NCBI GenBank assembly: GCA_002698365.1
Contig: NZWM01000047.1
Coordinates: 2,390 to 36,801, forward strand
Direction: 5' to 3'
Origin: Flavobacteriales bacterium
GTDB taxonomy: Bacteria > Bacteroidota > Bacteroidia > Flavobacteriales > TMED113
Length of the DNA stretch: 34,412 bases
Position 1 is the first letter of the stretch; the number at the start of each line of letters is the position of its first letter. A program made the translations under genes and the position numbers. Positions 2,720 through 34,412 of the stretch are shown piece by piece. Below the pieces are notes generated by a model, which did not search any database, had not been told where the DNA came from, and saw only the letters and a program-made list of their open reading frames with translations.

Positions 2720-3226
2720 TTAATTAGGATCGACTAAAAATAATGGCTGATCATATTCAACTGGAGACATATCATCTACCAACACTTTCACAATAGTTCC
2801 AGATATTTCTGACTCAATTTCATTAAACAATTTCATTGCTTCCACAATACCCACTACTTCACCAACACTTATAGAATCACCCACATTAATAAATGGATCT
2901 TTATCTGGGCTTGGCCTTCTATAAAATGTCCCAATAATAGGAGATTTAATAGTAATATGATTTGTGCTTGCAAGACTATCTGGAGTGTTTACTTCAGCTG
3001 ATGGTGGTGAAGCCACTGGTGGTGGTGAAGCCACTGGTGGTGGTGAAGCCACTGGTGGTGGTGAAGCCACTGGATTAATAGGTGTCACAGCAGTTACATC
3101 TGTGGTTATTTTTCCTTTAGGTGGAGATTTAATACAAATTTTTACATCTCCCATTTCTAAATCGACTTCTGTTGCCCCTGATTTAGCAACAAATTTTATA
3201 AGTTCTTGAATTTGCTTAAGATTCAT
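2720..3226 (-). CDS. accB: acetyl-CoA carboxylase biotin carboxyl carrier protein
   Basis: C-terminal biotinyl domain with [13 protein letters not shown]; Pro/Ala-rich linker made of tandem VASPPP repeats. Confidence 0.96.
3000..3073 (-). repeat. 18-bp tandem repeat (about 4 copies) in the accB linker, encoding VASPPP
   Basis: Direct repetition of ggtggtggtgaagccact on the + strand. Confidence 0.95.
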
Positions 3227-3267: not shown

Positions 3268-3332
3268 TTTTTTGAGAAAAATGGATGTTTTTTGAGAAAA
3301 ATGGATGTTTTTTTGAGAAAAAATGGATATTT
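3268..3332. repeat. Tandem repeat, about 3 copies of 20-21 bp (tttgagaaaaatggatgttt)
   Basis: Read directly: tttgagaaaaatggatgttt at 3271-3290 and 3291-3310, then a diverged copy. Confidence 0.95.
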
Positions 3333-3354
3333 TAAGCACAAAATAAATGCAAAT

Positions 3355-3450
3355 AAAAATAGCTGTTTTTGATGAAAAATAGCTGTTTTTGATGAAAAAT
3401 AGCTGTTTTTGATGAAAAATAGCTGTTTTTGATGAAAAATAGCTGTTTTT
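3355..3450. repeat. Tandem repeat, about 4.8 copies of 20 bp (agctgtttttgatgaaaaat)
   Basis: Identical units at 3361, 3381, 3401 and 3421, plus partial ends. Confidence 0.98.
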
Positions 3451-4766: not shown

Positions 4767-5804
4767 TTATTTGTTGGCTGTTTTTCGAATATTTGTAAGA
4801 TATAGTAATCTATTTTTATAGATTTCTAAAGATAAAAATATAGCAGACAATAAAGAATTTATTTTTGCCGCCTCTTTACCTGCTATATCATAACCAACAC
4901 CATGATCTGGTGAAACCCTAATAATTGGCAATCCTGCAGTATAATTAACTCCGTTTCCAAATGACATAGATTTGAATGGAATTAATGCCTGATCATGATA
5001 CATCGCTAAAATAGCATCGAAATTTTTATAATTACCTGAACCAAAAAAGCCATCAGCAGAATATGGGCCGTAAATTAAATTTCCGGCATTAAAAAAATTA
5101 TCAACAACTGGTGCAATAATCTTACGGTCCTCATCACCTATCAACCCATTATCTCCACCATGAGGATTAAGACTTAAAACAGCTATTTTAGGTTTTGATA
5201 TTAAGAAGTCTATTTTCAATGTTTTAATTAAAATTATTATTTTTTCTTCTAACAAAGAGCTACTAATACTATCCGACACTTTAGAAATAGGGATATGATT
5301 AGTGGCCGTAGCTATTTTTAGATTGTCATTACACAATAGCATTAAATTAGGCGTGTTGCTATATGCTTTGGAAAAATGCTCTGTGTGGCCAATAAAATTT
5401 TTATCTATCAATGAAATATTCTGCTTATTAACTGGTAAAGTTACAATCACATCAATACTATTTTTTTTTAAATCACTTATTGCTAAGTCAATCGATGTTA
5501 TGGCAATTTTCCCCGCCAACAGAGTGTTTTCTCCAGGCTTAACGGTTATGTCGCTTTCATTGATGTTAATTATATTTAATTGTTTTGGAGACGCATTTTT
5601 TGGGTTTCTAATCACATGGTAATTACAGTCTTGCCACTTATATAATTTCTTATAATAATTAACAGCAGATATTGGAGCATAAAGAATGGGAGTACAAAAA
5701 TCAAAAAGAGTATTATTAGAAAATGCTTTTATTAATACCTCTAAACCAACACCATTAATATCTCCGCACGATATTCCTAAAATAATTTTCTTTTTGTCAG
5801 TCAT
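4767..5804 (-). CDS. pdxA: 4-hydroxythreonine-4-phosphate dehydrogenase
   Basis: ILGISCGDINGVGLEV; FIGHTEHF; AMYHDQALIPFKS; RVSPDHGVGYDIAGK. Confidence 0.96.
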   Translation of the reverse strand: MTDKKKIILGISCGDINGVGLEVLIKAFSNNTLFDFCTPILYAPISAVNYYKKLYKWQDCNYHVIRNPKNASPKQLNIININESDITVKPGENTLLAGKIAITSIDLAISDLKKNSIDVIVTLPVNKQNISLIDKNFIGHTEHFSKAYSNTPNLMLLCNDNLKIATATNHIPISKVSDSISSSLLEEKIIILIKTLKIDFLISKPKIAVLSLNPHGGDNGLIGDEDRKIIAPVVDNFFNAGNLIYGPYSADGFFGSGNYKNFDAILAMYHDQALIPFKSMSFGNGVNYTAGLPIIRVSPDHGVGYDIAGKEAAKINSLLSAIFLSLEIYKNRLLYLTNIRKTANK

Positions 5805-5817
5805 AATCTAAAATTAT

Positions 5818-7182
5818 TTAATCATCCGATTCTCTATATTTATTCTCGAAAAAAGCCAATAACAACCGAACCCCCACACCTGTTCCTCCTCTTTTTTGGT
5901 ATATGTAGTCTTGCTTTAAAAATGCTGATCCTGCTATATCTAAATGCATCCAAGGGTAGGCGACAAAATGCTCAAGAAATTTTCCTGCAGTAATATGCCC
6001 CGCTTCTGCCCCACCTAAATTTTTAATGTCTGCAACAGAAGAATTTAAATCGTCTTTATAATCATCCCAAAAAGGCTGTACAGCAACTCTTTCACCTACA
6101 AGATTACCAGAAATTAATAATTTCTTCATGCTATTACTAAAATCAGTAAATACTTCATTATTATAATTTTCCATAGCCACAACGCCATATTTACCAATTG
6201 CTCTAGATGCAGCACCAGTTAAAGTGGCTAAATCTATTACTAATTCTGGCTTATAGCGCTTAGCATAATGAAGTGCATCAGCTAAAATCAACCTGCCTTC
6301 TGCATCCGTATTTAAAACTTCTACTGTGGCACCACTCATCATCGTAATTACATCACCCGGAACATATGCTTCACCACCTGGTCTGTTTTCAACTGCAGGA
6401 ATTAGCCCAACAACATAGCAATTTACTTTAGCGCGAGCCAGAGCATATATTGTTCCTATAACAGCAGCAGCCCCCCCCATATCACATTTCATCATATCCA
6501 TAGAGTTTGGTGTTGGCTTTAAACTCAATCCTCCAGTATCATACATAACCCCTTTGCCAACTAAAACTGTTGGAACTTTCTTTTTGGATGTTTTTGATTT
6601 ATATGTTAATATATTAAAAGTTGGTTTCGCAATCGATCCTTTGTTAACACTGAGAACACCACCCATTTTTAATTTATGTATGGTCGTCTCTTCCAACACC
6701 TCTAGCTTAAAACCAGCTTCTTTTGATAATTTTTTAATTGATTTTGAAAGTTGTTCAGCATTTAGGTGAGAAAGTGGCTCATTAACCAAATCACGTGCAA
6801 CACAAACACCCCTAACAACTGACTCTGTAATATTATCTAGTTTAGTTTTTATTGAAAACCCATTTTTTTTGAAAGTTGTTTTATGTCTATTAAAGTCATA
6901 ATTTGACAAATAAAATCCCTCTAAAAACCTTGATTTAAAAATTGAAGATTGCTTTTTATTCTCAAAGTTTACATTTACAGCAACAGTTTTTATTCTATCC
7001 CTCTTGCTATAGCCTTTGTTTAGGTTAACTAGAAAAGTGTGGATCTTGGATCCTTCTGCACAAATATGATCTCCATTTCTACACCACTTTACAGGCATAT
7101 GACATTCTAATGTATATTTATCCTGCAAATTCCAATTTGATTTTTCATCATCAGATTTAAATAATAAGATTTTAAAGTTCAT
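5818..7182 (-). CDS. pepA: M17 leucyl aminopeptidase
   Basis: VGKGVMYDTGGLSLKP; NTDAEGRLILADAL; metal-binding and active-site motifs of M17. Confidence 0.94.
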   Translation of the reverse strand: MNFKILLFKSDDEKSNWNLQDKYTLECHMPVKWCRNGDHICAEGSKIHTFLVNLNKGYSKRDRIKTVAVNVNFENKKQSSIFKSRFLEGFYLSNYDFNRHKTTFKKNGFSIKTKLDNITESVVRGVCVARDLVNEPLSHLNAEQLSKSIKKLSKEAGFKLEVLEETTIHKLKMGGVLSVNKGSIAKPTFNILTYKSKTSKKKVPTVLVGKGVMYDTGGLSLKPTPNSMDMMKCDMGGAAAVIGTIYALARAKVNCYVVGLIPAVENRPGGEAYVPGDVITMMSGATVEVLNTDAEGRLILADALHYAKRYKPELVIDLATLTGAASRAIGKYGVVAMENYNNEVFTDFSNSMKKLLISGNLVGERVAVQPFWDDYKDDLNSSVADIKNLGGAEAGHITAGKFLEHFVAYPWMHLDIAGSAFLKQDYIYQKRGGTGVGVRLLLAFFENKYRESDD

Positions 7183-7914: not shown

Positions 7915-10644
7915 TTACTTATCTTTTGTAAAAACAGAAATATTCCCTGAATAAAATTCTTTTACATGGTGGGCCTTGTTATAAACCTCTAAAGTATAGA
8001 AATATACTCCATCTTGAACATAGCCATCATTCTTGTCATAATAATGCTCTGGTAAAAAAGAAGACATTGGTCTATCACTATATGTAGTTTGACCATCCCA
8101 CCATTCACCATCAATACCATAACGAGGATTTATATACATAACCACACCCCATTTATTATATATATATAACACGCTTTCTTCGTGGACATTTGGATTTAAA
8201 TCCGGTATTACAAAGAAATCATTAACACCGTCACCATTAGGAGAAAAACTGTTAGGAATATTCATAGGGCATGAAACACCTATTTCAATAGTATCGCTTG
8301 TATTACAAGATGTAAATGCAAATTCATATATACCATATTCTGAAATTATAGCCTGAGTAGAATTCGAATACGGAGCTACTATCTCAGCTACTGAAGGTGC
8401 ATAGTCTGGGTTCAATTGCACCCAAGGGCCTCCATTAGAATCTGGGGTCATAGCATATAAATCAATCGTGAAAATACAATTTTGATGATCTGATGCTATA
8501 ATATATGGATCAACTACTGTAAAGGTTAAAGTTAGTGTGTCAGTTACACCGCAACTAGAAAAAACAATATTATAATCTCCATAATCTGGAACTATAACAC
8601 TTGCTGTATTGCCTTCACTATTAATAATCATGGTGTTATCTAACTCTCCGTCTCCAGGGCTCCATTCTCCACCGAACGAGGCGCTTGCAGTCAACTCTGT
8701 TTCAAGAGTGCAATAAATAATACCAGGATCCTCTATGTATGGATTGGGATTAATCAACTCAACCATAATAGTAGAGGTGGCCCCACAACCATAATAAATA
8801 AATTCATACGTTCCAAAATTGTCTGCTGTTACAAAAGTGTTTACGCTTTCCGGATTGCTAAAATCAACGCTTCCTGGACCAGAAAAATCCCAATAACCAG
8901 GATCTCCTTCAACAACAGCTTCTAATTGAAATGTTTCTAAACAATAGACCTCCTCAGGACCTGATAAAATTGGAGGAATTGATGACATATTAATTGTTTC
9001 TGAATCAACACCATTACAACCTTCAAATGTAAATACATAACTACCATAATCTGGAACAGAAGCAAATGTGTTAGTATTAAATGGATCATCAATAATAACT
9101 CCACCTGAAGGATTCACGGTCCACTGACCTTCTCCATTTTCGACATTTACTGAAAGAGGAATATTTTCAAGACAAGATAAATTGCCTGGATTATTAATCG
9201 TTGGAATTCCATTAATCACTGTTATTGTAATCTCATCTGAACTAGTTCCACATTCATTCTCTAAAGTCCAAGAAAAAGTGTTGTCTCCAAAAGCTAAATT
9301 TGACACTGAAATATCTGAACTACTTGCAGATGATATGTTTCCTTGACCAGATATCAAAGTCCATTCGCCTGTTTCTCCTATACCCGGTGGATTCCCCGAT
9401 AAATTATAACTTGTTTCACACGTTTCTATATCTTCACCTGTTTGAGCTGGAGTGACAGGGTCCCCATCAGTATCAATAAATATATCTATTGTGTCTTCAC
9501 AGCCATTCTCTGTAGAAATTGTAAACTGATAAGTGTCTGATGCAAGATTTCCTAATGAAGCACTAAATGTCGAGATTATTTCCCCATTACTATTTTGCCA
9601 TTCATAGCTGAACGGACCAGTCCCATCTATATAAACTATAGCACTACCTCCATTCTCATCATCACAAGGTGTATCTTGAATATCTATATTAGTAATGCTT
9701 ACAGACTCGAATATAATATTAACATCGTCTCCCTCAATTCCACCTTCAAAACCACACCAATCTCCGGCATCTCCGCATAATGACGCCCCTGCTGTATAGG
9801 TAGCATTCTCTGTTGGGTATACTGTAATTTCTCCACCAGTACCAATTTGATTTCCAAATTCATCTTGCCAAATAATATCTGTCCCTGCCACAGCTGGTGA
9901 AAATTCAATATTTTCAAGTATATAGTCATTGGCTCCGCTTGGAGTAAATCTCCATCCATCATCTTCACAAGTCCATGCATTTGGAAAATTTCGTTCTATT
10001 CCATCTAATCCAGTGACAACATGTGCAATACTACCATCATCATTGTGTAATGCATGTATAGCAGCACCATCATTCCAAGTACTACAAAGTACTTTTTGAG
10101 CAATATGTGTTTCTATAATATTTGTGCTTTCAAATAATTTGATTTGACTAGAATAACAAATATCTGTACAAGAAAACATTGGTATTCCGCAAAAAGATGC
10201 AATAAACACTCGATTAGGAGCCTCACCAATAGTAGCATATTGAATAGTTCCATTGCCATTAACACCTGGATATATGTCTTGCCAAGGACAGAGAATAGCA
10301 TTCATGGGGGCATCAAAATTATTTGGAACAGCAGCGCCTATATTCCAGCCTGAGTAACCACCCGCATTAGCTGTATTAAAAGACAAGTAGTTGTTAGAAG
10401 ATAGAACCACTTGATTATAAGTATTACCATAAAATTCAAAATCAAACCCCATATTAATAACACCACCAAAAATATCATCTGTATATATATTTGCATCTGT
10501 TAAATCAACGGCAAAAGAAGTGGCAGTTAGAACGACAGGAGTTCCTTCATCACCTTCGCATAAAACAGCATCCCCCTCAGCTACAACTTGTGAAAAAGCA
10601 TATGTGTGAATTAAAAAAAGAAATGAAAGAAACTTAAATCTCAT
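7915..10644 (-). CDS. Secreted multidomain protein with a gliding-motility-associated/T9SS type B C-terminal domain
   Basis: Signal peptide MRFKFLSFLFLIHTYAFSQ; C-terminal NIPNSFSPNGDGVNDFFVIP...YIYNKWG...GEWWDG...DGVYFYTLEV...GNISVFTK. Confidence 0.92.
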   Translation of the reverse strand: MRFKFLSFLFLIHTYAFSQVVAEGDAVLCEGDEGTPVVLTATSFAVDLTDANIYTDDIFGGVINMGFDFEFYGNTYNQVVLSSNNYLSFNTANAGGYSGWNIGAAVPNNFDAPMNAILCPWQDIYPGVNGNGTIQYATIGEAPNRVFIASFCGIPMFSCTDICYSSQIKLFESTNIIETHIAQKVLCSTWNDGAAIHALHNDDGSIAHVVTGLDGIERNFPNAWTCEDDGWRFTPSGANDYILENIEFSPAVAGTDIIWQDEFGNQIGTGGEITVYPTENATYTAGASLCGDAGDWCGFEGGIEGDDVNIIFESVSITNIDIQDTPCDDENGGSAIVYIDGTGPFSYEWQNSNGEIISTFSASLGNLASDTYQFTISTENGCEDTIDIFIDTDGDPVTPAQTGEDIETCETSYNLSGNPPGIGETGEWTLISGQGNISSASSSDISVSNLAFGDNTFSWTLENECGTSSDEITITVINGIPTINNPGNLSCLENIPLSVNVENGEGQWTVNPSGGVIIDDPFNTNTFASVPDYGSYVFTFEGCNGVDSETINMSSIPPILSGPEEVYCLETFQLEAVVEGDPGYWDFSGPGSVDFSNPESVNTFVTADNFGTYEFIYYGCGATSTIMVELINPNPYIEDPGIIYCTLETELTASASFGGEWSPGDGELDNTMIINSEGNTASVIVPDYGDYNIVFSSCGVTDTLTLTFTVVDPYIIASDHQNCIFTIDLYAMTPDSNGGPWVQLNPDYAPSVAEIVAPYSNSTQAIISEYGIYEFAFTSCNTSDTIEIGVSCPMNIPNSFSPNGDGVNDFFVIPDLNPNVHEESVLYIYNKWGVVMYINPRYGIDGEWWDGQTTYSDRPMSSFLPEHYYDKNDGYVQDGVYFYTLEVYNKAHHVKEFYSGNISVFTKDK

Positions 10645-21232: not shown

Positions 21233-21265
21233 TTTGGAAGTAATTAGCAATCATACTTAAATTTG
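21233..21265 (+). promoter_or_regulatory. Candidate Bacteroidota promoter: TTTG, 21-nt spacer, TAAATTTG
   Basis: TTTG at 21233-21236 and TAAATTTG at 21258-21265, 28 bp before the ATG at 21294; fits TTG-N17-23-TAnnTTTG. Confidence 0.6.
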
Positions 21266-21293
21266 GCCTTGTAATAACTAAAAAATTTTTGTT

Positions 21294-21518
21294 ATGAATA
21301 ATGCGTTTAAAAATTTAGGTGATTTCATTGGTGGCTTAACTGGCTTACTAATGTCTTTAATTGGTTTAGCAATTATTGCTGAAATTGCAGGTTTGGGCTT
21401 TTTGCCTGACGGTGGTGTTATCGGTTCTATCCAAGGATATGTTTCTGATTTTGCTAACGGAGGATTTGCAGGTTTAGTAACGTTACTTGTAATATTAGGA
21501 CTTGCTAAAATGAAATAA
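21294..21518 (+). CDS. Small two-TM Gly-rich membrane protein, family unknown
   Basis: 74 aa, two hydrophobic segments with Gly/Asp loop (GLGFLPDGGVIGSIQG); own promoter and terminator. Confidence 0.8.
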   Translation: MNNAFKNLGDFIGGLTGLLMSLIGLAIIAEIAGLGFLPDGGVIGSIQGYVSDFANGGFAGLVTLLVILGLAKMK

Positions 21519-21535
21519 TTACCTGTTTGGATAAG

Positions 21536-21563
21536 AAAAGCCCGCAGTTGCGGGCTTTTTTTT
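21536..21563 (+). terminator. Rho-independent terminator
   Basis: AAAAGCCCGCA-GT-TGCGGGCTTTT followed by further T residues. Confidence 0.95.
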
Positions 21564-21606
21564 ATTTAAAAGAGAAAAACAAATCAACCTAACCAATATA
21601 ATTCAC

Positions 21607-21819
21607 ATGAAAAATATTTATCAAAAAATCAAAGATATTATTACTCAAGCTCTTGACATAGCTGTCCCATTTTTATGCTTGGCTTTAGTAACGCAAGTAA
21701 TGGTGGGAGGAAAATTGGGTAGCTGGGATCCTGTAGGGAACCTAAAATCATTTGGTGCTGAAACTATCATTGGCATAGCAGCTATATTAATATTATATCA
21801 CTATATACAAAAAAAATAA
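21607..21819 (+). CDS. Small two-TM membrane protein, probable paralogue of the upstream 74-aa protein
   Basis: 70 aa; same layout and loop (GGKLGSWDPVGNLKSFG), similar N-terminus MKNIYQKIKDII and basic C-terminus. Confidence 0.75.
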   Translation: MKNIYQKIKDIITQALDIAVPFLCLALVTQVMVGGKLGSWDPVGNLKSFGAETIIGIAAILILYHYIQKK

Positions 21820-21824
21820 CACTG

Positions 21825-24533
21825 TTAATGAGCTTCTAGCCAATTTTGACCAAATCCAATATCTACCTTAAGGGGAACGCTCGTTGGATATACATTTTCC
21901 ATATTTCTTTTTACAATCTCCTTCACAATATCTTGTTCAGAAGAATAAACATCAAATACTAATTCATCGTGTACCTGCAAAACCATTTTAGATTTTAATT
22001 CCATATTATGGAATTCCTTGTGAATTTTAATCATGGCTAATTTAATCATATCTGCGGCCGAACCCTGTATCGGCATATTAACTGCATTTCGTTCATCATG
22101 TCCTCTTATAAAAGAATTTCTGGAATTTATATTTCTTAAATATCTTTTTCTACCTAAAATTGTTTCCACATATCCATGCTCTTTAGCAAAAGAAATTTGA
22201 TTATTAATGAATGATTTTAATTTGGGATATGTTTTAAAATAAGTCTCAATTAAATCTGCTGCTTGTTTTCTATTTAAACTACTTTGTTCACTTAATCCAA
22301 ATGCTGACACACCATAAATAATGCCAAAATTAACTACTTTAGCATTTGATCTCATTTCTTGCGTAACTTCAGATAATTTGACCTGGAAAACTTTTGAGGC
22401 AGTGGCAGTATGTATATCCTCATTGTTTAAAAATGCATCAATCATATTATCCTCCTTACTAAATTCTGCAATTAGCCTTAATTCAATTTGTGAATAATCG
22501 GCACACATTAAAATGTGATCTTTCGATGGGATGAAAGCCCTACGAACATCTTTTCCAGACTGTCTTCTAATTGGGATATTTTGGAGATTTGGATTACTAG
22601 AACTTAAGCGACCTGTGCTAGCTACAGTTTGATTAAAAGTAGTGTGTATTTTCCCATCTAAAGAACTAATTAACAATGGAAGAGCATTAACATAAGTAGA
22701 TAATAACTTGTTGTATGTCCTAAATAATAAAATAGAATCTATAATAGGATGACGGCCTTTTAATTTGATTAGTTCTTGCTCTCCTGTTGCAAACTGTCCA
22801 GATTTAGTTTTTTTAGGCTTCTCCGACAATTTCATTTTATTAAATAATATATCACCTAATTGTTTTGGTGATCCAATATTAAATTTTTCAGATGCAAAAT
22901 CATATATATGACTCTCTAATTTCTGTATTTCTTGATTTAAAACATTAGAGTATTGATTCAATAAATTTGTATCTAAAGATATGCCAGCCTGTTCCATGTC
23001 ACATAAAACATGGACTAGTGGAAGCTCAATGTTATAAAATAAGTTGATGAAATTATTTTGTTGTAACAATAAATTTTGTTGACTTTTAATTTTCATTAAA
23101 ACACTTACACCCTCTATTAAATATGATATCTTATCTTTTTCTATGGAGATGTTTAATAAATCCAAATTTATCGTATCTAAATTATATTTTTGAATGAGTG
23201 TTGGGAAACTTCTATTAGAGTCTGGATGTATTAAATAATCTGCAATACTAATGTCAAAATATGTTCCAGCACACAATATATTATCTTGAGATAAAAGGTG
23301 TCTGATTTTTTTGGAATCTAAAAAATTTTTATCAATAATTTCAGAATTAAAGATAGTAGTGAATTCCCTCAAGACTGTCGACAATGATAATGAATTATTG
23401 AAAATAATGTAAAAAATACTATCTAACGAATCCGAAAAAGACATCCCAACTAAATTATCTTTATCACTAGCAAGAAAAAAAGTAAGTTCTTTTTTTGTAC
23501 TCATCTTTTTTATTACATCTTTTAATTCCGACAAACTAGAAATACGATGCCCTTTTTCAATAATGGAATTTGTCAAAACCGTATCAACAGCAAACATATC
23601 TAATTGAATGGAATTAGATGATGCTTGTGCTGTTCTGTTATTACTGGAAAACTTTCTGCTTATTCTTTCATAAATTCTTCTAAACTCTAACGCATCGAAA
23701 ATTTTTTTCAACTCAATTAAATTTGGAGTATTACACTTTAAGATAGATACGTCTAATTGAATTGGGACATCAGTAATGATGGTCGCTAATTTTTTAGATA
23801 AAAAAGCTGATTCTTTACCATTCTCAACTTTTTCTTTTAATTTACCCTCTAATTCTTGAACTGAAGTGTATAAATTTTCTATAGAACCATAAGTTTTCAG
23901 TAGTTTGGATGCCGTCTTGGGCCCAACTCCAGCAATACCTGGAATATTATCGACTGAATCACCAACCATGCCTAAAAAATCTATCACTTGATTAGTATTT
24001 TTAACATCAAATTTTTCACAAACTTTTTTTACATCCCATATTTCATTGGGATTGCCTCGATTACCTGGACGAAACATGAATATTTTCTCAGAGACTAATT
24101 GAGCAAAATCTTTATCTGGTGTCAACATGTATGTTTGGAAATTAATTTTTTCAGCCTGTTTTGCTAAAGTTCCTATAACATCATCCGCTTCAAATCCGTC
24201 TACAAATAAAATTGGAATATTAAATGCATTTAATATCTCCTTAATATATGGTATGGCTGTTGATATCCCCTCTGGCATTGCATCTCTATTAGCTTTATAT
24301 TCTACATACTCAACATGTCTATGGGTCTTCTGTGGAGTATCAAACACAACACCTAAGTGTGTGGGGTCCTCAGTATTAATTAAATCAAATAAAATATTTG
24401 TAAAACCATAAATGGCGGATGTATCAAATCCTTTAGAGGTTATTCTAGGGTTTTTTGAAAAAGCAAAGTAGGCTCTATATATTAGGGCATATGCATCAAT
24501 CAAAAATAACTTTTTATCTCCTTTACTAAGCAT
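21825..24533 (-). CDS. polA: DNA polymerase I with 5' nuclease and polymerase domains; 3'-5' exonuclease domain degenerate
   Basis: LFLIDAYALIYRAYFAF; GFEADDVIGTLA; polymerase motifs STGRLSSSNPNLQNIPIR, ADYSQIELRLIAEFS, QVHDELVFDV. Confidence 0.97.
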   Translation of the reverse strand: MLSKGDKKLFLIDAYALIYRAYFAFSKNPRITSKGFDTSAIYGFTNILFDLINTEDPTHLGVVFDTPQKTHRHVEYVEYKANRDAMPEGISTAIPYIKEILNAFNIPILFVDGFEADDVIGTLAKQAEKINFQTYMLTPDKDFAQLVSEKIFMFRPGNRGNPNEIWDVKKVCEKFDVKNTNQVIDFLGMVGDSVDNIPGIAGVGPKTASKLLKTYGSIENLYTSVQELEGKLKEKVENGKESAFLSKKLATIITDVPIQLDVSILKCNTPNLIELKKIFDALEFRRIYERISRKFSSNNRTAQASSNSIQLDMFAVDTVLTNSIIEKGHRISSLSELKDVIKKMSTKKELTFFLASDKDNLVGMSFSDSLDSIFYIIFNNSLSLSTVLREFTTIFNSEIIDKNFLDSKKIRHLLSQDNILCAGTYFDISIADYLIHPDSNRSFPTLIQKYNLDTINLDLLNISIEKDKISYLIEGVSVLMKIKSQQNLLLQQNNFINLFYNIELPLVHVLCDMEQAGISLDTNLLNQYSNVLNQEIQKLESHIYDFASEKFNIGSPKQLGDILFNKMKLSEKPKKTKSGQFATGEQELIKLKGRHPIIDSILLFRTYNKLLSTYVNALPLLISSLDGKIHTTFNQTVASTGRLSSSNPNLQNIPIRRQSGKDVRRAFIPSKDHILMCADYSQIELRLIAEFSKEDNMIDAFLNNEDIHTATASKVFQVKLSEVTQEMRSNAKVVNFGIIYGVSAFGLSEQSSLNRKQAADLIETYFKTYPKLKSFINNQISFAKEHGYVETILGRKRYLRNINSRNSFIRGHDERNAVNMPIQGSAADMIKLAMIKIHKEFHNMELKSKMVLQVHDELVFDVYSSEQDIVKEIVKRNMENVYPTSVPLKVDIGFGQNWLEAH

Positions 24534-24596
24534 TCATCATATTATTCATTAAGTAAATGTAAACTATTTAATGAAAAATTAATTATTTTGAATACA

Positions 24597-25979
24597 ATGG
24601 ATTTTCAAAAAATTATTTCTTGGCTAAATAATCCGGTTCCAAATATTTCTATCACCTTATTTAGAACCGCATTTTCTTTTATTCTATTAATCCAAACATA
24701 TTATTTTATTAATAATGAATTTATTAAATACAATATTACTGAGCCATTTATGCTTTTTCCTTTTATTAATGGATTGGACCCCATGCCTGAAGTATATTTG
24801 ATTATTTTAAGCTATAGCATGCTTATCTCAAATATTGGAATGCTGTTTAATAAAACAGCAAGAATATCAACATTTTTTTTCCTCTGCTCCTTCACATATT
24901 TTTGGCTACTAGATAAAACATATTTTAACAATCATTATTACTTTATGTCTTTAATATGTTTTATCCTTCTTTTAGTTGAACATAAAAGTTCATTTAAAAA
25001 AATAGCCTATGTTAATAGATGGTCCCTTTTTGCTTTACAGGCAATGGTCCTTATTACATATTTAATTGCTGGGATTAACAAACTCAATCCATACTGGCTA
25101 ATAGACTTACAACCTATTGCTTTTATTTTAGAAAACAAGTGCGATGTGACTGAAAACACTTTTTTCATCAATCCTTTATTAATTATTTTAATAACATATG
25201 GTGGGTTATTGTTTGATTTATTCATCGGCTTTTTATTATTCTACAAACCAACAAAACCTTTAGCATTTATATTAATAATTGTGTTTAATATTATGAATCA
25301 CTTCTTGTTTCTAAATAACGGTGAAATTGGAGTTTTTCCGTTTATTATGATATCAACATTAATTCTTTTTATAGACCCAAAATACTTAACCAAGGTATTT
25401 ACAGGTACACAAGACATAAAGTATAAACATAAAAGCCCGCAATTATTAAAATATTGTATTACGGTGTTTTTAATAGTTCAAATAATTCTACCATTTCGAC
25501 ATATACTTTTTAAAGGATATGTTGATTACAATGGTATTGGGCAACGATTTTCTTGGAGAATGAAAAGTATGTGTAAAAATCCCACAACTGAAGGAATAAT
25601 TCAATTTTCTGTTTTTGAACAAAAAAGCAAAAAACAAATTGCTCATTTTCACTTATTAAATATGCAAGAACAATTTAAACAAAGTGGAATACATGAAAAT
25701 ATTTACTTAACTGAAAATCAAATAAAAAAATTATTATACTACCCTGACCTACTACCCATTTTTACAAAAAAAATAGAATCTATTATAAGTAATCACACTA
25801 AGGAAAATTACAATAAAAAATTAAAATTTAGAATATCGGCCAACTGTCACATTAAGTTTATGGAAAGACCCTCGCAAGCACTTATTAATACATCAATAGA
25901 TCTTACTGAGATGTCTGGGCTAAATACTAATAAATGGCTAAATAATTTAGAACAAAAACCATGGAGCGTTCAGCAATAA
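24597..25979 (+). CDS. HTTM / vitamin K-dependent gamma-carboxylase family protein
   Basis: FNNHYYFMSLICF; IAGINKLNPYWL; NGEIGVFPFIMISTLILFIDPKYL; GIGQRFSWRMK; C-terminal FRISANCHIKFMERPSQALINTSIDLTEM. ATG chosen over the upstream TTG. Confidence 0.88.
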   Translation: MDFQKIISWLNNPVPNISITLFRTAFSFILLIQTYYFINNEFIKYNITEPFMLFPFINGLDPMPEVYLIILSYSMLISNIGMLFNKTARISTFFFLCSFTYFWLLDKTYFNNHYYFMSLICFILLLVEHKSSFKKIAYVNRWSLFALQAMVLITYLIAGINKLNPYWLIDLQPIAFILENKCDVTENTFFINPLLIILITYGGLLFDLFIGFLLFYKPTKPLAFILIIVFNIMNHFLFLNNGEIGVFPFIMISTLILFIDPKYLTKVFTGTQDIKYKHKSPQLLKYCITVFLIVQIILPFRHILFKGYVDYNGIGQRFSWRMKSMCKNPTTEGIIQFSVFEQKSKKQIAHFHLLNMQEQFKQSGIHENIYLTENQIKKLLYYPDLLPIFTKKIESIISNHTKENYNKKLKFRISANCHIKFMERPSQALINTSIDLTEMSGLNTNKWLNNLEQKPWSVQQ

Positions 25980-32810: not shown

Positions 32811-34412
32811 ATGGATCCATTAATTGTTATCATTGCATTAGGAGCAATAATTATTATTTCTCACTTCTTAAACATATACTCTGAAAACACAGGAGTTCCA
32901 TCTGTATTAATTTTAATATTCTTTGGTGCCATCTTACAACTGGATACTCAAATAGCTGCAATATTATTTCCTGAATGGATATTAGAGTATGAATCTAACT
33001 ATAATAAACCTTGGTCTGGTGTGCTTGGAGATGATAATGTGAAGGGTAATTTATTAGAAATCCTAGGGGTGGGTGGGTTGATTCTTATCTTATTAGAAGC
33101 TGCACTCGATCTGAAAATTAACAAAACAATGATTGTCTCATCATCAAAAGCATTTTTTGTTGCATTATTTGGTTTATTAGGCTCATCATTTTTAATGGCA
33201 TATTTAATTTCATCTATTTTTGCGCCAGAACTAGATTTACTACATGCATTATTATACTCGGTGCCTCTTTCAATTATAAGTAGTGCAATTATTATTCCTA
33301 GTATTGAATCCTTTAGTGAAGAAAAAAAATCTTTTTTAATTTATGAAAGCACCTTTTCTGATGTCCTAGGGATATTAATGTTTCAAGTGGTGGTGGGTTC
33401 TCTAGCTACAGGAGCTATAATGAGCTCAAGTGAAATAATTGGCAAATTAGTGTTATCCATTATATTCTCTATTGTAATTAGTATAATTTTAATCTATTTG
33501 TTTCAAAAAATAAAAGGGCACACAAAATTATTTTTACTTTTTTCTATTTTAATCTTATTATATGCTGTAGCTGAAAAGCTTCATCTATCAGCCTTGCTAA
33601 TCGTATTAATTTTTGGAATTATCTTAAATAATTACAAGTCCGTTTTTGTAGGATTTTTGGCAAAAATCATTAAGCCTGAAAAAGTAGACGCTATTCAAGA
33701 TGACTTTAAAATGATCATGAGAGAAAGTGCATTTGTTGTAAGGACTTTTTTCTTTGTCTTATTTGGATATTATGTGTCATTTGAATCCTTATTTACAGGA
33801 TATGGACTGGTGATTTTCTACAGCCTTATACTTTTTGCTGCTATTTATTTTATTAGATTTATTCTTATTTTCCCAACTTTTAAAGGACGTTACTGGCCGG
33901 AAGTTTTTTTGTCCCCAAGAGGTCTTATCACCATATTATTATTTTTTCAAATCACAGACCAATATATATGTGACTTAACATGGCATAATCAAGCTGAAGG
34001 TGTCCTTTTATTTATTATTCTGGGATCAGCATTTACAATGAGTAATGCTTTAATTGGTGTTAAAAAAATAGAATCAGATAAAAGAAGAAAAAAAGAAAAA
34101 GCGATTTCAAAAGAAAAAAACAAGCATCTAAATAAGACATGGCTGAAAGAAGAGCATAATAAGCAGATGCATAAGTTACAGGATAACCAAGATGCTGACA
34201 CAAAATCCAATGATCAAGATGGTGACACAAAAGCCGATAATCAAGATGGTGACACAAAAGCCAATGATCAAGATAGTGACACAAAAGCCGATAATCAAGA
34301 TGGTGACACAAAAGCCGATAATCAAGATGGTGACACAAAAGCCGATAATCAAGATGGTGACACAAAAGCCAATGATCAAGATAGTGACACAAAAGCCGAT
34401 AATCAAGATGGT
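32811..34412 (+). CDS. CPA-type cation:proton antiporter with acidic repeat tail, 3' truncated
   Basis: Not in the ORF track because no stop lies in the window. MDPLIVIIALGAIIIISHFLNIYSENTGVPSVLILIFFGAIL...LIYESTFSDVLGILMFQ...PEVFLSPRGLITILLFF; frame stays open into the NQDGDTKAD repeats. Confidence 0.9.
   Translation, partial: MDPLIVIIALGAIIIISHFLNIYSENTGVPSVLILIFFGAILQLDTQIAAILFPEWILEYESNYNKPWSGVLGDDNVKGNLLEILGVGGLILILLEAALDLKINKTMIVSSSKAFFVALFGLLGSSFLMAYLISSIFAPELDLLHALLYSVPLSIISSAIIIPSIESFSEEKKSFLIYESTFSDVLGILMFQVVVGSLATGAIMSSSEIIGKLVLSIIFSIVISIILIYLFQKIKGHTKLFLLFSILILLYAVAEKLHLSALLIVLIFGIILNNYKSVFVGFLAKIIKPEKVDAIQDDFKMIMRESAFVVRTFFFVLFGYYVSFESLFTGYGLVIFYSLILFAAIYFIRFILIFPTFKGRYWPEVFLSPRGLITILLFFQITDQYICDLTWHNQAEGVLLFIILGSAFTMSNALIGVKKIESDKRRKKEKAISKEKNKHLNKTWLKEEHNKQMHKLQDNQDADTKSNDQDGDTKADNQDGDTKANDQDSDTKADNQDGDTKADNQDGDTKADNQDGDTKANDQDSDTKADNQDG
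34185..34412 (+). repeat. 27-bp tandem repeat, about 8.4 copies, encoding (N/D)QD(G/S)DTKA(D/N); continues past window
   Basis: Read directly; reaches the window edge. Confidence 0.98.

Follow-up and report, generated by a model that had tools for sequence, protein, structure and literature searches.

Genes A and B, which lie in tandem in a 34,412-nt stretch of Flavobacteriales DNA (hereafter, the window), encode small paralogous membrane proteins with a conserved promoter and terminator layout. The pair is a core feature of the chromosomes of several Flavobacteriales families and evolves under purifying selection, and related genes have been gained by several phage lineages. As an explanation, we tentatively favor a two-subunit inner-membrane assembly, with A as the major and B as the minor subunit, that was taken over by phages and belongs to the core physiology of several small-genome Flavobacteriales families from marine metagenomes. 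What had been observed at this locus in a preliminary description is confirmed and strengthened by the present analysis, and the interpretation offered there proved right in part. Both genes are borne out by the reading of the open reading frames of the window (Table 1).

Table 1. Elements of the A/B locus, given as positions within the 34-kb (34,412-nt) Flavobacteriales window
Feature	Position	Strand	Description
Gene A	21294-21518	+	ORF, 74 aa, two-TM; proposed major subunit
Gene B	21607-21819	+	ORF, 70 aa, two-TM paralogue of A; proposed minor subunit
polA, DNA polymerase I	21825-24533	-	convergent neighbor of B; context only, outside the system
A promoter -33 element TTTG	21233-21236	+	fits the published Bacteroidota consensus
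A promoter -7 element TAAATTTG	21258-21265	+	fits the published Bacteroidota consensus
A leader motif ATAACTAAA (consensus WTAAYYA[M]A)	21274-21282	+	conserved in relatives
A/B terminator hairpin	21533-21563, core 21540-21555	both	palindrome with A-tract and T-tract

Several other features of the window deserve mention. Beyond polA, 24588-25979 encodes an HTTM protein whose lumenal domain is of the vitamin-K-dependent gamma-carboxylase type (E 5e-18), and a related gene was found in seven of the compared loci. A tandem repeat with a 27-bp unit (consensus GATAATCAAGATGGTGACACAAAAGCC; at least 8.6 copies) occupies 34182-34412, up to the end of the window, and yields repetitive ORFs on the minus strand. 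Short tandem repeats are located at 2998-3073 and 3268-3450: an 18-bp repeat lies within a gene for a biotin carboxyl carrier-like protein, and perfect 20-bp repeats (4.8 copies) occupy the intergenic region beside the same gene.

Comparison of the A and B family alignments using hhalign yielded a probability of 98.7 and an E value of 3.4e-16 over 74 columns. Because membrane proteins can match through composition alone, the columns of B were shuffled with hydropathy classes preserved; the A-B profile score was 79.8, against a maximum of 20.4 in 30 such shuffles. In addition, searches initiated with the B profile recover A, and those with the A profile recover B. By these profile comparisons, A and B, which had earlier been judged by eye to be diverged paralogues, are true paralogues. 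Assignment of the two proteins to different known families and a lack of profile similarity between them were both looked for and did not occur. Neither protein showed a significant match in Pfam, NCBIfam, PHROGs, PADLOC, PDB or the fold libraries, and Foldseek and fold searches likewise returned nothing significant. A literature search, which excluded preprints and most subscription papers, retrieved no description of the pair. Thus, A and B, for which no family had been recognized from the start, represent an undescribed family as judged by every library searched.

Both proteins have basic ends and an acidic loop, so that, by the positive-inside rule, both termini are likely to be cytoplasmic. 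The predicted topology is a two-helix hairpin, N-in/C-in, which backs the two TM segments previously assigned to each protein and would fit any of the scaffold, pore and holin-like roles considered at that stage. In the AlphaFold (AF2) models, a long first helix is followed by a loop helix and then the second TM helix; the helices span residues 2-31, 42-55 and 57-73 of A (pLDDT 69, moderate confidence) and residues 2-33, 42-47 and 51-69 of B (pLDDT 80). Across the family, A has a median dN/dS of 0.049 and B one of 0.10, and, on the strength of these substitution ratios, both are genuine genes subject to purifying selection. The A protein of the window genome is typical of the family, unlike its B, which is by far the most diverged B of the family, with a short loop deletion and a branch length of about 1 in trees. 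Given this unusual divergence, the pairing of A with B may be relaxed in the window genome.

The layout of the regulatory elements around A is conserved among the relatives. The consensus of Bacteroidota promoters is TTTG/TANNTTTG (PMC6847099), and the two elements found upstream of A in the window, TTTG and TAAATTTG, agree with it, as had been proposed. The TTATTTGGAA context of the -33 TTTG also occurs in several relatives within the family of the window genome. Among 62 distinct A/B pairs, TANNTTTG is located 35-39 nt upstream of the A start in 60, the other two being truncated or misread at the start; by chance, it is found in about 10% of shuffled upstream regions. In all 60 complete host leaders (6% of the shuffles), WTAAYYA[M]A is found 19-23 nt upstream of the A start, and promoter and leader are both kept in 60/60 homologous pairs with complete upstream DNA. 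A wider regulon using the A leader was considered and rejected: in the host genome, the longer leader pattern is no more common than its reversed control.

In the window, A is followed by the hairpin GCCCGC-AGTT-GCGGGC with a T-run, which qualifies as a terminator on either strand. The preliminary description identified it as the sole strong GC-rich terminator of the window, and the hairpin with its core at 21540-21555 indeed stands alone at such strength across 34 kb, although a simple hairpin scan missed it, probably since the stem continues into the T tract. The A-B gap holds a strict hairpin and T-run in 56 of the 62 distinct pairs, compared to 0/1240 shuffles; in the remaining six pairs, from family f15, the hairpin is kept without the T-run. 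On the far side of B, the distance from its stop to the convergent stop is between -4 and +20 nt in 54 of 56 pairs and equals 5 nt, to the polA stop, in the window. The conservation of the palindrome between A and B may be partly due to its terminating polA transcripts that arrive from the other side.

The strong, conserved promoter and terminator of A are consistent with an abundant A product. Within the A-B gap, TANNTTTG is present in just 23 of the 62 pairs, and this scarcity, together with the arrangement of promoter and terminator, suggests that A is produced at a high level and B at a low level, by read-through. The earlier notion of a monocistronic transcript is supported for A alone; B usually lacks a promoter of its own and leaves no space for a terminator ahead of the polA stop.

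The A and B profiles match the same 68 of 298 Flavobacteriales genomes, all of which belong to families f1, f8, f11 and f15 and are represented by assemblies of 0.8-2.0 Mb. In f11, the best-sampled family, the pair is present in each of the 15 high-quality genomes (completeness of 90% or more, contamination of 5% or less). A/B were absent outside the order in a phylum-wide sample of 396 genomes, and a pattern scan of 84,980 species, the sensitivity of which is limited by the use of a single pattern, gave matches in Flavobacteriales only. The named records that contain the pair are all Flavobacteriales metagenome-assembled genomes, which are taken, in part from the record titles, to be of marine origin.

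The pair adjoins the 3' end of polA in families f1, f8 and f11 and is one gene away from it in f15. In two close relatives from which the pair is missing (G007 and G025), the polA region is broken or missing, and inspection of the DNA beside polA in non-carrier families revealed no convincing hidden A/B candidate. The polA tree splits the carrier families over more than one clade, a pattern that points to losses or old transfers of the pair. No virus, secretion or linked complex genes were recognized near the host pair, and the neighboring genes look housekeeping. Residence of the host pair on a virus or plasmid was rejected, given that there is no plasmid match and that the place beside polA is fixed. 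The viral-type character suggested earlier is partly right with respect to homologues in T4-like phages, but the host pair itself is a stable chromosomal locus and not a virus remnant. Elsewhere in one f15 genome (G074:C6:14584-15052, a different contig), there is a further, weak A/B-like pair with an internal stop in one member, perhaps a decayed duplicate.

A profile scan of viral contigs identified a 74-aa homologue in a T4-like phage (L071), encoded between the tail tube and baseplate hub genes and retaining, some 20 nt upstream of the start codon, a leader of the host type, ATTAACTAAA. The possibility that this gene originated as a tail protein was rejected: in 144 related modules, the tube and hub genes are either adjacent or split by unrelated inserts, and the lack of the homologue there marks it as an insertion. 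A second group of T4-like phages carries A-like genes at a constant site, immediately before a gene for a 117-aa protein and close to baseplate genes. Such a gene is present in 33 of the 54 assessable contigs, that is, those with enough upstream sequence at the site, and missing in the other 21; Flavobacterium phage immuto, an isolate, has the syntenic block without an A-like gene. The fixed-site genes are equipped with a ribosome-binding site and a hairpin terminator of their own, and their median dN/dS is 0.19. In L348, L352 and their relatives, the phage A gene is preceded, at a distance of about 25-50 nt, by a short palindrome such as GGCAATATTGCC. The third group, of five contigs, carries a B-type gene whose start codon overlaps the stop codon of the gene before it and which follows a phage lysozyme gene and one further gene, in a region rich in metabolic genes. 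One of the phages with a B-type gene, L346, encodes a DUF2828/DUF7788 protein (8101-9534) and a glutamine synthetase (5721-6764), an unusual auxiliary set. Each phage contig seen has a single copy, which may be A-like, B-like or mixed. No lysin was found near the phage A copies that were read, and two of the three phage sites read had no recognized lysin nearby. A tblastn search with host and phage versions against isolate phages gave no match.

Because the respective sites are empty in related phages, the phages must have gained these genes. In the best tree, the phage A group is placed among the host A proteins, phage B among the host B proteins, and the L071 copy beside all A; however, host A and host B as single clades are not rejected (p-AU 0.47 and 0.46, respectively). 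The host-to-phage direction of transfer, which we infer, therefore draws its support from the empty sites and the leader, not from the tree. The copies carried by several T4-like phages suggest that the proteins play a part of some weight in phage infection. A gene is retained by phages when it is of benefit in the infected cell, and the repeated gain therefore marks the family as functionally important.

Under the two-subunit explanation, A and B would be subunits of a small inner-membrane assembly built of helical hairpins whose termini are cytoplasmic and whose periplasmic loop is short and acidic. A would be abundant by virtue of its own strong promoter, the conserved leader and the immediate terminator, and B would be scarce, being expressed by read-through of the terminator or, in some lineages, from its own promoter. 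Oligomers formed by packing of the glycine-rich helices could determine a feature of the inner membrane, such as its permeability, energization or local organization. Phages that infect the carriers or related hosts would have acquired genes of A or B type, with which they preserve or modify the assembly in the course of infection. A bolder version, which we consider rather unlikely, is that the major and minor hairpin paralogues form a membrane gate or pore of a novel type, on which the physiology of marine Flavobacteriales centrally depends and which was taken over independently by at least three phage lineages, whose A-type, B-type or mixed single subunits reprogram the host membrane.

Part of the evidence can be read differently. 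The size of the proteins, their two TM segments and the predicted N-in/C-in topology are shared with class II holins (PMC9327680), the phage B gene comes after a lysozyme gene and one further gene, with its start overlapping the preceding stop, and the phage A genes are near baseplate genes. A and B could thus be holin-like proteins that form triggered hairpin lesions or pores, with the phage copies acting in lysis and the host pair being a domesticated holin and antiholin-like protein involved in lysis or vesicle release. However, the phage copies are missing from the same site in related phages and so are not the universal lysis protein, neither the phage A copies that were read nor the host pair had a visible lysin gene nearby, there is no PHROG holin match, and a very strongly conserved core gene with a strong promoter would make an odd holin. 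We regard this possibility as unlikely, and as less likely still a role for A/B on the host side of a conflict with phages, whereby they would block or sense phage entry or infection and the phage homologues would be decoys or superinfection-exclusion factors that enter the assembly and disable it. Small phage membrane proteins often exclude other phages, and single A-like, B-like or mixed copies occur at different phage sites. Nevertheless, PADLOC gave no match, and the pair is not patchy in the manner of defense systems, considering its presence in 15/15 f11 genomes, its fixed polA-side locus and very low dN/dS.

Lower again in probability, A/B might serve as small accessory subunits in some abundant membrane complex (respiratory, transport or secretion) whose genes lie elsewhere. 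The strong promoter and terminator, the tiny size and the core status of the pair would all fit. Yet no linked complex genes were recognized among the housekeeping-like neighbors, and rhodopsin, the obvious candidate, does not track with the pair: it is found in 27 of the 68 carriers and in 44 genomes without A/B, and a role of the pair as accessory proteins of rhodopsin is refuted by this distribution. Finally, the anatomy of A and B, short hydrophobic hairpins in a paralogous pair, resembles that of the VP1/VP3 capsid proteins of spindle-shaped archaeal viruses (PMC9608457, PMC10866085), and the top Foldseek match of A, a weak one, is a 74-aa transmembrane protein of a spindle-shaped virus. 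A virus-derived membrane coat or scaffold that packs in this manner and makes vesicles or tubules nevertheless appears highly improbable: the Foldseek match has an E value of 6.6, far from significant, there is no profile match in PDB or PHROGs, and no virus genes were recognized near the host pair.

The principal interest of the family lies in the combination of a kept host locus with presence in several phage lineages. It is absent from the curated libraries searched, yet strongly conserved and present in every well-sequenced genome of one or more Flavobacteriales families. The repeated gain by phages offers an experimental handle on the family, and the sharp layout of promoter, leader, A, terminator and B makes the idea of major and minor subunits testable with existing metatranscriptomes and metaproteomes.

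Among known systems, the class II holins of the S21 and SPP1 types are small proteins with two TM helices and both ends in the cytoplasm (PMC9327680). A/B resemble them in size, in the number of TM segments, in the predicted cytoplasmic location of both ends and in the proximity of one phage B copy to a lysozyme gene, but differ in the lack of a match to Pfam, NCBIfam or PHROG holin families and in being a core bacterial pair with a strong promoter that is optional in phages. The VP1/VP3 proteins of spindle-shaped archaeal viruses are paralogous small hydrophobic hairpins (PMC9608457), as A and B are, but there is neither a sequence match nor a significant fold match (best Foldseek E 6.6), and A/B are host-chromosomal. 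With the conjugative pilins VirB2/TrwL, A/B share two hydrophobic helices, and TrwL is the best PDB match of the B profile, but the E value of 0.62 is not significant and no secretion genes were recognized near the pair. Known anti-phage defense proteins, as represented in PADLOC, did not match A/B. A further comparison is with auxiliary host genes borne by phages, for example, psbA in cyanophages. In the same manner, A/B are found both at a stable locus of the host chromosome and in several lytic phages, the phage A genes are kept by selection (dN/dS 0.19), and their sites are empty in relatives; the distinction is that A/B are small membrane proteins, with one copy, A-type, B-type or mixed, per phage contig seen.
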